Part shown: in pieces, positions 27,388 through 32,078 of the stretch
How the letters are laid out: every line of letters starts with the position of its first letter
How positions within the stretch are numbered: the first letter of the stretch is position 1
NCBI GenBank assembly: GCA_938049385.1
Contig: CALIBQ010000049.1
Coordinates: 1 to 32,078 of the forward strand
DNA length: 32,078 nucleotides
Source: an uncultured Anaerolineae bacterium
Lineage (GTDB): Bacteria > Chloroflexota > Anaerolineae > JACIWP01
Direction: 5' to 3'
Position numbers and translations under genes: made by a program
The notes under the pieces: generated by a model
What the model saw: the letters and a program-made list of their open reading frames with translations, nothing else
Told to the model about the DNA's origin: nothing
Database searches by the model: none

Positions 27388-27759
27388 CTACCTGATGTCG
27401 TATCCCACCGCGAAGGCAACCGCGTACTCGCGGCTGTGAGAAAGGCTGATCTCCACCTGCTGGATACCGAGCTGGGCGGCGCGTGCCTCCGCCCGACCGA
27501 GTAGCCGCACCATGGGCTTGCCGCGCGTATCGTTCAGAATCTCGATCTCGCGCCAGGAGATGCCGGCGAAGCCGGTCCCCAGCACCTTAGAGACGGCCTC
27601 TTTGCCAGCGAAGCGCACCGCCAGCTCTGCCGGAGCGCCGGCATAGCGCCGGCGCTCCTCTTCCGTGTACACCCTCTGCAGGAACCGCTCGCCGAAGCGC
27701 GCCAGGGCGCGCTTCACGCGCTCGATCTCCACGATGTCCACCCCGGCGTAGATGGGCAT
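27388..27759 (-). CDS. acpS: Holo-[acyl-carrier-protein] synthase
   Basis: The 123-residue protein transfers the 4'-phosphopantetheine arm from CoA to acyl carrier protein. GVDIVEIERV (Asp8 binds Mg2+), RFAGKEAVSKVLGTGFAGISW and LSHSREYAVAFAV are the standard motifs, and the length is typical. ATG 27759 follows GAGG and lies 9 nt after the ugd stop, so it is the last gene of the SWIM/flippase/ugd operon. Functionally it is also close to coaE at 12402-13028, but that is in a different operon. Confidence 0.95.
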   Translation of the reverse strand: MPIYAGVDIVEIERVKRALARFGERFLQRVYTEEERRRYAGAPAELAVRFAGKEAVSKVLGTGFAGISWREIEILNDTRGKPMVRLLGRAEARAAQLGIQQVEISLSHSREYAVAFAVGYDIR

Positions 27760-27768
27760 GGGCCGGCC

Positions 27769-29106
27769 TCACCCGCAGGAGCTTGGGTTGTTGATGGAAT
27801 TGGGGCCGTAGCCCCGCCCGACGCCGCGGTAAATGAAGCCCAGCCTCTGCATTTCCGCCGGCTCGTACATGTTGCGGCCGTCCACGAAGACCGGCCGGCG
27901 CATGGAGCGGGCGATGCGCGCCAGGTCCAAATGGCGGAACTCGTTCCATTCGGTGACCAGCACCAGCGCATCGCACCCTTCCGCCAGCTCATAGGGGTTC
28001 CGGCAGAATACCACGCCGTCGCCCAGCTCCTTGCGGGCATTCTCCATCGCCACGGGATCATAGGCTCGCACGATGGCGCCCTCGCTCTGCATCAGGCGGA
28101 TAATCTCAATGGCCGGCGCCTCGCGGATATCGTCGGTATTGGGCTTGAAGGAAAGCCCCAGCACGCCAATCACTTTTTCATGCAGGCCGCCCAGCAAATC
28201 ACGCACCTTGCGCACCAAGAGCCGGCGCTGGTCCTGGTTAATTTCCATTACGGCGCGCAGGAGCTGTGGGTGACATCCGTGGATGGCGGCCATATGCGCC
28301 AGCGCCTTGACATCCTTGGGGAAACAGCTACCGCCGTAGCCGACGCCGGCGTCCAGGAAATCGCGCCCGATGCGCTTGTCGTAGCCCATGCCGGCGGCGA
28401 CCTCTTTCACATCCGCCCCCAGCGCCTCGCAGATGTTAGCGATCTCGTTGATGAACGAGATGCGGTTGGCAAGGTAGGCATTGGAGGCGTACTTGATCAT
28501 CTCGGCCGTGCGCAGGTCCGTGATCATGATCGGGGCGCGCAGGGGCAGGTAAAGCTGTGCCACCTGGTTGGCCGCTTCCGGATGCAGGGACCCCAGCACT
28601 ACCCGGTCGGGGTGGAGAAAGTCGTTGACCGCCGAACCCTCGCGCAGAAACTCCGGGTTGGACACCACCCAGAACTCCACGTTGTTCTTGCGCGCCTTGC
28701 GGATAATGTCCGCCACCCAGTCGCCGGTGCCTACCGGCACGGTGGAGTTGTTGATGATGATCATCGGGTGGTCCATGACCTCGGCGATGGACTCGGCGGC
28801 GGCTCGCACATACTTCAGGTCGGCCTCGCCGTCCACGCCGGAGGGGGTGCCTACGGCGATGAAGACGAACTCGGCGTTTTTCAGGCCTTCGGCGTAGGAG
28901 GTGGTGAAGTGCAGGCGGCCGGCCTCGATGTTGCGCCGCACCATTTCCTCCAGCCCCGGCTCATAGATGGGAATCTGGCCGGCCTGCAGTTTGGCGATTT
29001 TCTCCTCGTTGATGTCAATGCAGGTCACATCGTTGCCCATGTCGGCGAAACAGGTGCCGGTCACCAATCCCACATAGCCCACACCAATGACCGAGATATA
29101 CCGCAT
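27769..29106 (-). CDS. ugd: UDP-glucose 6-dehydrogenase
   Basis: This 445-residue enzyme oxidises UDP-glucose twice to UDP-glucuronate with NAD+, feeding surface polysaccharide synthesis. Seen are the N-terminal Rossmann motif [26 protein letters not shown] (Glu152, Glu156), [17 protein letters not shown] (Lys205, Asn209), the catalytic GGSCFPKD (Cys261, Lys264, Asp265) and [16 protein letters not shown]. The usual KSTVPVGT appears as NNSTVPVGT, so the Lys before Ser is Asn120; the Ser and Thr are kept. GGAGG precedes the ATG. It lies 18 nt after the flippase-like gene, supporting a role in envelope glycans. The extreme C-terminus ([14 protein letters not shown]) is longer than in many members. 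Confidence 0.95.
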
Positions 29107-29124: not shown

Positions 29125-30150
29125 TTATCCGTGTAGTTTGGTAGGGGCATCCACCGCCGGCGCCGCCGGCACACCCTGCGCCGCCGCACCGAAATCGCGC
29201 CAGCTCACCTGCTCGCGCCACATGTAATAGGCGCCCAAAGCGGTGATGGGGAACCACAGTGCGCCGTGCAGTACCAGCGTATAGGCGGTGGCGACAGGGC
29301 GCAGAACCCCGTAGGTCACCAGGACCTCGATGCCCGGCAAGTCAAAGGTGCCCACATACCCGGGGGAGGAGGGGATAGTCGTGGCCAGGTTCACCACACC
29401 GTTCATCAGCATCAGCACATAGAACGGCACAGAGAAATCGAAGGCGTGCATGACGAACCAGTATTTGACGGTCTCCGCCAGCCAGATCACCAGGGAGGTG
29501 ACGAAGATCATCAGCACGTCGCGCCCACTGCGTAAGGAGGTCAGCCCTTCCATGAAACGGTCCATGATGCCGCGCAGGGGTGCCCGGAAGCGTGCCGGCA
29601 CCAACCGGTCAATAGCCCAGCCGTACACCCGTTGGGCCAGGTCGTGCCGCATCGCGATGATGAAGAAGAACCCCAGCGCGCCGAAGAAGGCCAGGCTGGC
29701 CACGACCACAATGCGCTGGAGCCATGCTTCCATAGGGGTAAAGGGCAGTGCAAAGAAGACGAACAGGAGCATGATGACGCCGTCGAAGATGCGCTCCACC
29801 AGCACAGTGGCCAGGCCGGCGCTCATGCTGACGGCCTCTTTGCGGCGCAGGACGTAACAGCGGATCACCTCGCCGGCGCGCGCCGGGTAGACGTTGTTGC
29901 CCATGTAGCCGATGGCCACCACAGGGAACAGATGCCGCAGGGGGACGCGCTTGATGGGTCTCAGCATGTAATGCCAGCGCCAGGTGCGCGCCCAGACGGC
30001 GAAGAAATAGACCGCCACCCCTGGCAGTATCCACCAGTAGCGGGCAGTCTGCAAAGCCTGCCACAGCTCGGGCAGATGGAGACCCCGCAGGGCGAGATAG
30101 AGGAAAAACGCGCTGATAATGAAGCCCAGCCAGACCTGCCAGCGTTTCAC
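29125..30150 (-). CDS. Flippase-like LPG-synthase TM family protein (second copy)
   Basis: The 341-residue protein starts with GTG 30150 after GGGAG. It has about eight helices with family wording: WARTWRWHYMLRP after the second helix, VVAIGYMGNNVYPARAGEVIRCYVLRRKE, SAGLATVLVERIFDGVIML, and TIPSSPGYVGTFDLPGIEVLVTYGV near the end. These match UPF0104/AglD-like proteins, also called lysylphosphatidylglycerol synthase TM region. It belongs to the same family as the protein at 7102-8172 but is clearly diverged from it. Placement directly before ugd suggests work on lipid-linked sugars, although the biochemical role is inferred. It follows the SWIM gene by 12 nt. Confidence 0.85.
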   Translation of the reverse strand: MKRWQVWLGFIISAFFLYLALRGLHLPELWQALQTARYWWILPGVAVYFFAVWARTWRWHYMLRPIKRVPLRHLFPVVAIGYMGNNVYPARAGEVIRCYVLRRKEAVSMSAGLATVLVERIFDGVIMLLFVFFALPFTPMEAWLQRIVVVASLAFFGALGFFFIIAMRHDLAQRVYGWAIDRLVPARFRAPLRGIMDRFMEGLTSLRSGRDVLMIFVTSLVIWLAETVKYWFVMHAFDFSVPFYVLMLMNGVVNLATTIPSSPGYVGTFDLPGIEVLVTYGVLRPVATAYTLVLHGALWFPITALGAYYMWREQVSWRDFGAAAQGVPAAPAVDAPTKLHG

Positions 30151-30162
30151 AATGCCGCTCCC

Positions 30163-30402
30163 TTATGCGCCGGCTTCCATCAACCGCTCGCCAAATATGC
30201 GTTCCAGTGCCATGGAATGACTGCAAACCCCTCGTTGGGAGAAGAAGTGACAGGTACAGCTCCATTTGCCCTGGTCAAACGTCACGATGTGCACATCATG
30301 GTCCCCTTTGAAACGCACCGTCATCTGGGTGATGGTCACCCGCTCCGGCTCCTCCGCATACCGCTTGGCCTTCTCGATCTTGCTCACCATCGCCGAATCC
30401 AT
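30163..30402 (-). CDS. Small SWIM zinc-finger protein
   Basis: This 79-residue protein begins at ATG 30402 after GGAGG with 7-nt spacing. Its second half shows the SWIM pattern CxC...CxH: CTCHFFSQRGVCSHSMALE (Cys50, Cys52, Cys60, His62). SWIM fingers bind Zn2+ and occur in DNA- and protein-binding contexts. No catalytic domain is present, so a regulator or adaptor is possible but unproven. Being the first gene of the flippase/ugd/acpS operon, behind a structured leader, it might act in control of the operon; this is inference only. Confidence 0.82.
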   Translation of the reverse strand: MDSAMVSKIEKAKRYAEEPERVTITQMTVRFKGDHDVHIVTFDQGKWSCTCHFFSQRGVCSHSMALERIFGERLMEAGA

Positions 30403-30424
30403 TTCCGCGCCTCCTATCGTGGCT

Positions 30425-30467
30425 GAAGAACAAGAAACGACACCAGGGCATACTCGCCCGGGTGTCG
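30425..30467 (-). terminator. Terminator-like hairpin in the 5' leader of the SWIM operon (possible attenuator)
   Basis: On the minus strand CGACACCCGGGC (30467-30456), a 6-nt loop and GCCCTGGTGTCG (30449-30438) form an 11-bp stem with one mismatch. It is followed at once by TTTCTTGTTCTT (30437-30426), eight T in twelve. This has the form of an intrinsic terminator. It lies between the promoter (30570-30542) and the SWIM start (30402), so read-through would be required for expression of the four downstream genes. Confidence 0.55.
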
Positions 30468-30506
30468 ACGACTCTCAGGTATATGCACATGGGCAGGAGC
30501 GCCCAT

Positions 30507-30540
30507 TCATCCCCCTCCGGCTTGGCGTGATTCCAAGGGG
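30507..30540 (-). promoter_or_regulatory. GC-rich stem near the start of the SWIM operon leader
   Basis: The first leader bases carry CCCCCT and, about 20 nt on, GAGGGGG (minus strand), which can pair. An alternative small hairpin, CTTGG/CCAAG, lies inside. The GGAGG at 30518-30514 could serve a small ORF starting at ATG 30506 (30 codons, TAG at 30414, just before the SWIM ribosome binding site), and the stem would hide that site. The ORF is supported only by position and spacing. Confidence 0.35.
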
Positions 30541-30541
30541 G

Positions 30542-30570
30542 AGTATACCGCCTTTGGGAGCGCCTGTCAA
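30542..30570 (-). promoter_or_regulatory. Promoter of the SWIM/flippase/ugd/acpS operon
   Basis: On the minus strand TTGACA (30570-30565), 17 nt and TATACT (30547-30542) match the consensus at 11 of 12 positions. Transcription should begin near 30535, giving a leader of about 130 nt. Confidence 0.85.
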
Positions 30571-30581
30571 GCCATTACAGC

Positions 30582-30704
30582 GAGGGTGTTGAAAAAGCCC
30601 TAATACAATCTGCGGAAGAGCGGCCTGGCGGCTGAAGCCACAGCAACGACTGCGAAGCCTGCCTAGGACCGCAGTTTCAACTGCCAGCCTTTTTCAATGC
30701 CCTC
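30582..30704. mobile_element. Short copy of the MITE-like element
   Basis: The left end GAGGGTGTTGAAAAAGCC starts at 30582. The reverse complement of the right end, GAGGGCATTGAAAAAGG, ends the 123-bp copy at 30704. The core keeps CCTGGCGGCTGAAGCCAC and GCAGTTTCAACTGCC in the order of the 199-bp copy at 8290-8488 but lacks most of its central palindromes. The flanks TACAGC and TATGGC agree at 4 of 6 positions, a possible worn target duplication. It lies 12 bp upstream of the -35 box of the SWIM operon promoter. Confidence 0.72.
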
Positions 30705-30717
30705 TATGGCGCCGAAG

Positions 30718-30749: not shown

Positions 30750-31310
30750 TCAACACGCCGGCGCTTTGCTCGAGGCATGGCGCACCTGCTCCAGATGCAC
30801 CCGGCTGGGTTCGTAGACCTCTTCGGCCCGATGCGCTGGCATCTCCTCTGCCGGGAACCCCACGGCCAAAATCACGGCCAGATGGACCCCCGCCGGCAGA
30901 CCCAGCAGTCGCTCCACCATCTCCAGAGCGTCCGGGTTGCCCAGCCACGGCATCAACCAGGCCGAGCCAAGGCCTAGGGCGGTGGCGGCGATCAACATGG
31001 ATTGGGCGGCCGCCGCGACGTCCAGGTCCCACGAGGCCGGCCCTTCTTCTTCCGCCACTACCGCGATCCAGACCGGCGCGCCGGCCAATGAGGGCTTTAG
31101 CCGCAGAGCCTCCGCAATCTCTCGCTTCGCTCCCTCATCCCGCAAAATGATGAAATGCCAGGGCCGCTGGTGAAACCGCGTGGGAGCCAGCATGCCGGCG
31201 GTCAGGATATGATTCAGTGCGCTCTCCGGGACAGGTGTATCCCGAAAGGCGTAATGGGTGCGGCGGGCCAAGATGGTTCGCAACATCTGCGTACCTTTTC
31301 GCGTTCTCAT
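30750..31310 (-). CDS. Nitroreductase-family flavoprotein (second of tandem pair)
   Basis: The 186-residue protein starts at ATG 31310, overlapping the upstream stop (ATGA) and preceded by GGAGGTGAG. The family pattern is seen: LRTILARRTHYAFRDTPVPESALNHILTAGMLAPTRFHQRPWHFIILRD at the N-terminus, ALGLGSAWL in the middle, and VILAVGFPAEE near the end. Such proteins bind FMN and use NAD(P)H to reduce nitro compounds, quinones or other acceptors. The usual Arg-Ser at the FMN phosphate site is ARRTHYAFRD, a variant. It is clearly a paralogue of the gene just upstream (both have PWHF..(I/V)RD and LAGAPVWIA). Substrate unknown. Confidence 0.88.
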   Translation of the reverse strand: MRTRKGTQMLRTILARRTHYAFRDTPVPESALNHILTAGMLAPTRFHQRPWHFIILRDEGAKREIAEALRLKPSLAGAPVWIAVVAEEEGPASWDLDVAAAAQSMLIAATALGLGSAWLMPWLGNPDALEMVERLLGLPAGVHLAVILAVGFPAEEMPAHRAEEVYEPSRVHLEQVRHASSKAPAC

Positions 31311-31879
31311 CGCTCACCTCCTTCCGGGCGGGACTGGTGGAAGGGTGCCTGCCGGCGGTTGTCCCATTGGCCCTCATGCACCCTCGTAGAAAAGATATAC
31401 GGGTCCAGCACGTGCGGCGGGCGCTGTTCGGCCGGCCTGCCCACTGCCACAAAGGCGAACAGTTCCCATCCCTCCGGGATATGTAGGGTCCGACAGGCTT
31501 CCACCTGCGCCGGCGTCCATTTCGAATCCACTGTGCCGATCCAGGTGGCACCCAGCCCCATGGCGGCGGCCTGCAGAAGGGTGTTCATAACCGCGGCGCT
31601 CAGGTCCATGCGCCAGGCCGGCGATGCACTTACATCGGCCAGGAACGCGATCCAGACCGGCGCGCCGGCCAACTGCGGGTGTACCCGAAAAGCCTCCGCA
31701 ATCCGCTTTTTGACCTCCGGGTCCCGGATGACTACGAAATGCCATGGTTTGCGCCCCATCAGAGAGGGAGCGGCCATAGCCGCGGTCAGCAGGTGCTGGA
31801 TGGTATCCTCGGATATATCCTCGGACGTAAAACGGCGCAGGGTGCGCCGCTGTTGAATGACCTCGATTGCGCTGTACAT
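31307..31879 (-). CDS. Nitroreductase-family flavoprotein (first of tandem pair)
   Basis: The 190-residue product begins at ATG 31879 after AGGAG. It shows IQQRRTLRRFTSEDISEDTIQHLLTAAMAAPSLMGRKPWHFVVIRD, LAGAPVWIAFLAD, AAAMGLGATWIG and FVAVGRPAEQRPP, the nitroreductase fold with an FMN site. It shares many motifs with the downstream gene, so the pair arose by tandem duplication. Family members often work as dimers; a heterodimer of the two is conceivable but untested. The C-terminal 25 residues are polar and probably disordered. Confidence 0.9.
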   Translation of the reverse strand: MYSAIEVIQQRRTLRRFTSEDISEDTIQHLLTAAMAAPSLMGRKPWHFVVIRDPEVKKRIAEAFRVHPQLAGAPVWIAFLADVSASPAWRMDLSAAVMNTLLQAAAMGLGATWIGTVDSKWTPAQVEACRTLHIPEGWELFAFVAVGRPAEQRPPHVLDPYIFSTRVHEGQWDNRRQAPFHQSRPEGGER

Positions 31880-31959: not shown

Positions 31960-31988
31960 AGTATAGCACTTTTCTAAAGAATTGTCAA
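31960..31988 (-). promoter_or_regulatory. Promoter of the nitroreductase pair
   Basis: On the minus strand TTGACA (31988-31983), 17 nt and TATACT (31965-31960) match the consensus at 11 of 12 positions. The leader is about 75 nt. A MITE-like copy begins 12 bp upstream of the -35 box. Confidence 0.85.
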
Positions 31989-31999
31989 TAGTTGCGAGT

Positions 32000-32078
32000 G
32001 AGGGTGTTGAAAAAGTCCGAACATACAATCTGTGGAAGGGCGGCCTGGCGGCTGAAGCCACGGCAACAACTGCGAAGC
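32000..32078. mobile_element. MITE-like element, left part, cut by the window end
   Basis: GAGGGTGTTGAAAAAGTC at 32000-32017 is the terminal repeat. The following bases, including ACATACAATC and GGCCTGGCGGCTGAAGCCAC, are collinear with the copies at 8290 and 30582. The right end lies beyond the window, so neither length nor target duplication can be judged. Confidence 0.75.

Follow-up and report, generated by a model that had tools for sequence, protein, structure and literature searches.

A candidate translation-dependent transcription attenuator in the leaders of small SWIM zinc-finger genes of Chloroflexota

Why would the gene of a small protein be approached through a near-perfect promoter and then, before its first codon is reached, through an intrinsic terminator? 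The question is raised by a SWIM zinc-finger gene encoding 79 amino acids (30163-30402, minus strand) in the window, by which we mean the whole stretch of 32,078 nucleotides analysed here. A preliminary description of its leader had proposed attenuation, in which translation of a small open reading frame (ORF) breaks a terminator hairpin, together with a stem that hides the Shine-Dalgarno sequence and joint control of envelope-sugar genes. Here, we compare the leader with those of related SWIM genes and argue that it probably acts as a translation-dependent attenuator of SWIM transcription, the terminator of which would be masked by a ribosome moving behind RNA polymerase. The proposed attenuation is supported by comparison beyond the window; the proposed stem is not conserved.

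The promoter of the window leader is of the sigma-70 type, TTGACA-17-TATACT (30542-30570, minus strand). It agrees with the consensus at 11 of 12 positions, in line with the near-perfect match claimed for it, and its hexamers are identical in both sister species. The exact pattern TTGACA-N16-18-TATACT occurs at 27 sites in the 3.37-Mb genome, compared with 0 for a reversed-pattern control, and the motif is therefore probably used in this organism. At a looser limit, promoter-like sites between 27300 and 32078 are in no clear excess (2 found, 1.1 expected). Three of the 26 other consensus promoters of the genome have a terminator-like hairpin within 200 nt; by our reading of the sequence, two of these hairpins lie inside a frame starting just after the promoter and one stands directly before a tRNA-like stretch.

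A second TTGACA-17-TATACT promoter in the window (31960-31988, minus strand), with a TG before its -10 box, is located upstream of a nitroreductase-like gene and has no terminator-like hairpin in the next 200 nt. This gene (31307-31879) and an adjacent one of the nitroreductase family (30750-31310), both on the minus strand, overlap by 4 nt. The pair is flanked by a dispersed repeat (30583-30705 and 32001-32078), for which there are at least 42 matches in its own genome including the query, the best 40 of 190 candidates having been scored.

Downstream of the leader promoter, a Shine-Dalgarno sequence GGAGG (30514-30518, minus strand), identical in all three species of the genus, stands 7 nt before an ATG at 30506, as the preliminary description had it. 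This ATG opens a frame of 30 codons, MGAPAHVHIPESRRHPGEYALVSFLVLQPR and a stop (30414-30506, minus strand), which spans the terminator and whose TAG at 30414 overlaps the Shine-Dalgarno sequence AGGAGG of the SWIM gene (30410-30415, minus strand). The frame is present as described and its conservation is partial: it is intact in two of the three genus species, and the third has a TAG within the loop of the hairpin that leaves 17 codons. Within it lies the intrinsic-terminator hairpin CGACACCCGGGC-GAGTAT-GCCCTGGTGTCG (30438-30467, minus strand; -20.2 kcal/mol), followed directly on its 3' side by the T-rich tail TTTCTTGTT (30429-30437, minus strand). A short transcript is predicted to end at an inferred position of about 30430.

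Taken as a single sequence, the window hairpin is unremarkable. The fold of the whole leader gives z = 0.02, and a simple terminator scan that allowed no stem mismatch did not list the hairpin at 30467-30438. The support for it, and with it for the claim of a hairpin and T-rich run inside the 30-codon frame, comes from relatives: both arms are identical in the three genus species, and the stem covaries in a separate family described below. A smaller hairpin, ATGGGC/GCCCAT (30489-30506, minus strand), includes the leader start codon, and in an alignment of the three genus species its stem is kept and its loop is changing. The C5/G5 stem that was to hide the Shine-Dalgarno sequence has to be given up, as the C5 is absent from both sister species, which keep the G5. 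Since the C5 (30541-30537) abuts the -10 box, it probably lies upstream of the first transcribed base.

To see the leader in its relatives, we gathered 154 SWIM loci, 148 of them unique. The set was not sampled at random but consists of the homologues that matched best in each search, with the paralogue pair L005/L006 among them. A terminator with a dG of -15 or below is found within 200 nt upstream of 89 of the 148 SWIM genes, compared with 9.8 expected from dinucleotide shuffles. For the order of the elements we used 145 SWIM genes with 260 nt of upstream sequence, a terminator limit of dG <= -13 and a promoter score of at least 15. A terminator precedes 97 of these genes, a promoter 83, and both in the right order 79. 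The corresponding counts were 21, 6 and 0 for 89 other genes of the same loci, picked by a simple ORF rule, and 81, 4 and 0 for 725 shuffles (Fisher test for promoter plus terminator, SWIM against other genes, 4.7e-22). The window has this order as well, with its promoter, then an intrinsic terminator, then the SWIM gene. With 119 of the 148 loci placed in a family, the layout was found in 26 of the 34 families sampled within the class and in 3 of the 10 sampled elsewhere in the phylum, and the sequences of the terminator stems vary between families.

The gap between the terminator and the start of the SWIM gene is short, 19-108 nt, and holds a promoter scoring 10 or more in 6 of the 79 loci. 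SWIM expression would therefore mostly need read-through. For these 79 loci, we also rejected the reading of the hairpin as the terminator of the upstream gene, as a promoter lies in between; that explanation may hold for loci outside the set. The layout is missing, at the thresholds used, from 66 of the 145 SWIM genes, among them all 13 sampled loci of one family and all 6 of another. SWIM can thus be expressed without it, and in some places the layout is lost, replaced or never gained.

The short gap bears on whether the leader could be something apart from the SWIM gene, namely an independent small RNA or very short gene that ends at this terminator, SWIM being expressed by leak or from another promoter. 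That a stop codon comes just before the terminator would be expected of an ordinary small gene as well. Gaps down to 19 nt in which a promoter is rarely found argue against a separate gene, however, as does a peptide that is not conserved, and no Rfam family that would point to a small RNA is found in the window or in 20 relatives. We regard such a separate unit as improbable. It could also be supposed that the terminator is a fixed, partial one that sets a low constant SWIM level, the small ORF keeping it partly open and nothing being regulated. Consistent with this, no changing signal is visible in the sequence; but a weaker promoter would do the same, and yet what is conserved is the combination of a strong terminator with a near-consensus promoter, so that we consider a merely fixed setting very unlikely.

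If a ribosome is to mask the terminator, a small ORF should lead to it. We read 83 leaders in detail, at looser limits (promoter score of at least 12, terminator of -11 or below). A Shine-Dalgarno sequence with a start codon is present in 69 of them, compared with 42% of shuffled leaders, and is missing by the rule used from 14. In 38 of the 69, the stop falls no more than 8 nt ahead of the hairpin and no further than slightly beyond its midpoint; the frame runs through the whole terminator in 24, and the stop lies in the 3' arm in 3 and earlier in 4. Counted together, the small ORFs of 65 of the 69 leaders end no more than 8 nt short of the hairpin. Shifted frames end early in 52 and 23 of the 69, the +1 frame being a biased control because ATGA gives TGA. 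In shuffled leaders that have a start codon, the shares are about 46% (0.197/0.424) for run-through frames, 22% for first-half stops and 30% for early ends. Run-through frames, the class to which the window frame belongs, are thus unenriched (24 of 69, or 35%, against about 46%), and the ORF signal is a scarcity of early stops together with an excess of first-half stops.

Binomial tests gave p-values of 6e-7 for the few early stops, 3e-9 for the first-half stops and 3e-14 for a Shine-Dalgarno sequence with a start, which treat the loci as independent and are too good because the loci are related. When one locus was drawn per group (34 groups, mean of 200 draws), 15.2 frames stopped in the first half, 11.2 ran through, 3.1 ended early, 1.3 stopped in the 3' arm and 3.2 leaders had no Shine-Dalgarno sequence; shifted frames ended early in 22.0 and 10.4. 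The pattern stays.

The small ORF usually has 10-17 codons; run-through frames, including that of the window, have about 30. In 12 overlapping pairs of relatives, 54 of 62 leader codon differences change the amino acid (by simple count), and the amino-acid composition of 35 frames (503 residues) is close to shuffled. Since the codon differences are mostly amino-acid-changing, the evidence that the frame is translated comes mostly from the frame and the position of its stop. With 54 of 62 differences nonsynonymous, a conserved bioactive leader peptide is unsupported, except in one family, whose frames share a conserved MR(V)(F/L) start. The peptide sequence and the use of particular codons both seem unimportant.

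For the window taken alone, the ORF is the weakest part of the case. An alternative, overlapping leader ORF of 11 codons, MNGRSCPCAYT and a stop (30475-30510, minus strand), keeps its stop in all three genus species; its ATG at 30510 has a spacing of just 3 nt after GGAGG, and it ends 10 nt short of the terminator hairpin. Because the run-through class is unenriched and the 11-codon frame stops 10 nt before the hairpin, the ORF evidence in the window is weak and leans on the relatives.

A separate large family, with 28 loci outside the main set and a match in 23 of 26 genera, presents the arrangement as well. The promoter is TTGACT or TTGACG-17-TATACT in all 28 loci, and a scored terminator follows in 27. 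In a test that did not require a Shine-Dalgarno sequence, the first-ATG frame meets the terminator in 27 of 27 and ends early in none, compared with early ends in 15 and 6 of the 27 for the shifted frames. The stop lies at -8 to +15 nt of the terminator start in 24 of these loci, and the frame runs through in the other 3. The gap from terminator to SWIM gene is 25-37 nt in 26 of 27, and nucleotide conservation tracks codon positions at codons 2-4. Of the 9 pairs in the terminator stem, 5 have changed on both sides (27 sequences), and 97.9% of the cells are paired, compared with 19-76% for slid controls.

The place of the stops invites another reading, a sensor of the stall type. Normal translation of the leader would end early, so that the terminator forms and SWIM is off; should an inhibitor of translation, slow release or a poor codon detain the ribosome close to the frame's end, the 5' arm would be masked and SWIM switched on, as with the upstream ORF (uORF) of whiB7. 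A ribosome on the stop codon would indeed mask the stem in the 38 of 69 leaders with a stop at or in the first half of the hairpin, the stop is near the hairpin in 24 of 27 leaders of the separate family, and whiB7 is induced by stalling in its own uORF (PMC13236596). The leaders nevertheless have no conserved stall peptide or codon, their composition being near shuffled and their changes mostly non-synonymous, and in the 24 of 69 where the frame spans the whole terminator a moving ribosome would suffice. That the leaders act by holding a ribosome therefore appears rather unlikely to us.

Other kinds of attenuator would leave different traces. The leaders are no more complementary to the terminator 5' arm than shuffled sequences are (mean z +0.41, n = 110), with only 2% of the 110 leaders at or below the 5% shuffle level, so that no antiterminator hairpin is seen. 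As there is neither antiterminator pairing above chance nor a one-amino-acid codon run in 35 frames, we rejected a classical amino-acid leader-peptide attenuator. A riboswitch or other known structured cis-regulatory RNA was rejected likewise, since Rfam at its gathering score gave 0 matches in the window and 0 in 20 relatives; a permissive search around the leader returned two chance-level matches (E 1.6 and 2.1).

The same results bear on control by a protein or ligand, for example by the SWIM protein on its own leader or by a riboswitch. Binding to nucleic acid or to protein is the role usually proposed for SWIM domains, and the hairpin at the leader start codon is kept in three of three genus species, both of which would suit such control. 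It is at odds, though, with stem sequences that vary between families, with antiterminator pairing that is not above chance and with the Rfam search, which has no match at the gathering score and chance-level ones below it; we find it hard to credit.

The protein whose gene the leader precedes is widespread. At E <= 1e-12 it has matches in 317 of 396 genomes of the class (Anaerolineae) and in 302 of 400 genomes of the phylum (Chloroflexota). It matches the Pfam SWIM model (PF04434) at 21.4 bits, with a cut-off of 19.6, and 14 of 28 homologues match this model at E <= 0.01. Of the CxC...CxH ligands, C49 is invariant and C51, C60 and H62 are kept in at least 90% of the 28 homologues; K11, A12, Y15, A16, E18, R21 and G33 are, like C49, invariant among the 28 sequences. 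The predicted structure has a model pLDDT of 88. A PDB sequence search gave no match at E <= 1, Foldseek with the model none at E <= 0.001, and VIA-align a Z of at most 3.1, with ZSWIM8 at Z 2.6. These structural matches are uninformative as to the function of the SWIM protein. Two NCBIfam families each have weak matches to 3 of 28 members, a plasmid search gave no match, and our literature search found no paper pairing the SWIM zinc finger with Chloroflexi or Chloroflexota. One homologue (L031:1669-1890) has three of its four zinc ligands replaced. The own genome holds a second small SWIM gene, L005 (C10:71051-71257), 41% identical, which is without the attenuator layout, its hairpin lying upstream of the best-scoring promoter.

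In the window, three genes follow close behind the SWIM gene, all on the minus strand: one for a flippase-like membrane protein (LPG_synthase_TM; 29125-30150), a ugd-like gene for a UDP-glucose/GDP-mannose dehydrogenase (27769-29106) and, last in the operon, an acpS-like phosphopantetheinyl transferase gene (27388-27759). By a crude ORF rule, a member of the flippase-like group comes next after SWIM in 28 of 169 loci, and the next ORF is on the opposite strand in 68 of 169. Joint control of flippase, ugd and acpS, as proposed in the preliminary description, is thus plausible only for the window operon and some relatives, and the conserved link is to SWIM. As far as the compared sequences indicate, the attenuator goes with the SWIM gene and not with the envelope-sugar genes. 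By eye, an acpS-like gene comes directly after SWIM in 2 of 169 loci, L039 and L128.

Comparison among relatives thus brings out a promoter, a terminator and a small frame, their order, and their association with SWIM. How these elements could work together may be pictured as follows. The strong, near-consensus promoter would start a leader of about 100 nt that ends in an intrinsic terminator, and the Shine-Dalgarno sequence would load a ribosome on a short frame that extends to, into or past this terminator. A ribosome close behind RNA polymerase could cover the 5' arm and block the hairpin, so that transcription would proceed into SWIM and, in the window, also into flippase, ugd and acpS. 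Where the ribosome is missing or too far behind, the terminator would form and a short RNA would be released, with an end near 30430 in the window. From the arrangement we infer that the short transcript begins and ends in the cell where its promoter and terminator place it, that a ribosome relieves the terminator, and what signal is read. As peptide and codons seem unimportant, this signal should be ribosome loading or translation status and not one amino acid.

Experiments in E. coli lend substance to such a relief of termination. According to PMC4824070, termination dropped from about 90% to less than 10% when the stop codon ahead of a terminator was shifted from a distance of 28 bp to one of 5 bp, and uncoupling translation abolished this repression of termination by stop-codon proximity. 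The same paper reports that a terminator lying less than 100 bp into a coding region usually goes unrepressed, the ribosome not having caught up. Since early terminators usually escape repression, a pause or fast ribosome loading would be needed here, and a short leader frame would amount to a race between ribosome loading and polymerase. Such a race could be what a sensor of ribosome availability needs. It is conceivable, as a tentative extension that we hold less likely than the attenuator itself, that the leaders form a peptide-independent ribosome-availability sensor across many Chloroflexota families, whose fixed output is one widespread small SWIM protein; this protein would then be a general effector of translation or growth status in the phylum, a part that whiB7 plays in Actinobacteria.

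The proposed mechanism would offer a concrete and testable regulatory switch for a protein with matches in 317 of the 396 class genomes and 302 of the 400 phylum genomes. If true, this would be an attenuator kept across many families with no conserved peptide or visible antiterminator. It would also provide an opening to ask how transcription couples to translation in Chloroflexota, where we found no Term-seq study. Among the titles and abstract openings searched, and in passages of PMC4833913, we found no report of such an attenuator in Chloroflexi, and the main text of a survey of premature terminators (PMC2965389) has none of the four Chloroflexota names searched.

Among known systems, the leader attenuators of trp, his and ilv have a promoter, a leader ORF and a terminator in common with the SWIM leaders; they differ in that the SWIM leaders are without above-chance antiterminator pairing or a regulatory codon run. 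The growth-rate attenuator of E. coli ampC involves hardly any peptide; a ribosome binding to its leader opens an intrinsic terminator and so reports how fast the cell grows. The SWIM leader differs from it in gene and phylum, in a frame that is usually 10-17 codons long, and in its recurrence across many families. In the pyrBI leader, described in part in PMC4824070, the ORF likewise covers an intrinsic terminator, a close ribosome prevents termination and the peptide is unimportant, but the system responds to UTP via polymerase pausing and has a leader gene of 135 bp, compared with mostly 10-17 codons here. Actinobacterial whiB7/wblC also has a short uORF and attenuation before a small regulator gene; it is induced by stalling in the uORF (PMC13236596), whereas the SWIM leaders are without visible stall codons or peptide. 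The DUF1127 gene of Sinorhizobium meliloti (PMC12218461) is another small protein gene under uORF-dependent attenuation, proposed to monitor ribosome availability. There, attenuation is Rho-dependent and uORF translation lowers expression; in the SWIM leader, the terminator is intrinsic and translation would raise expression.
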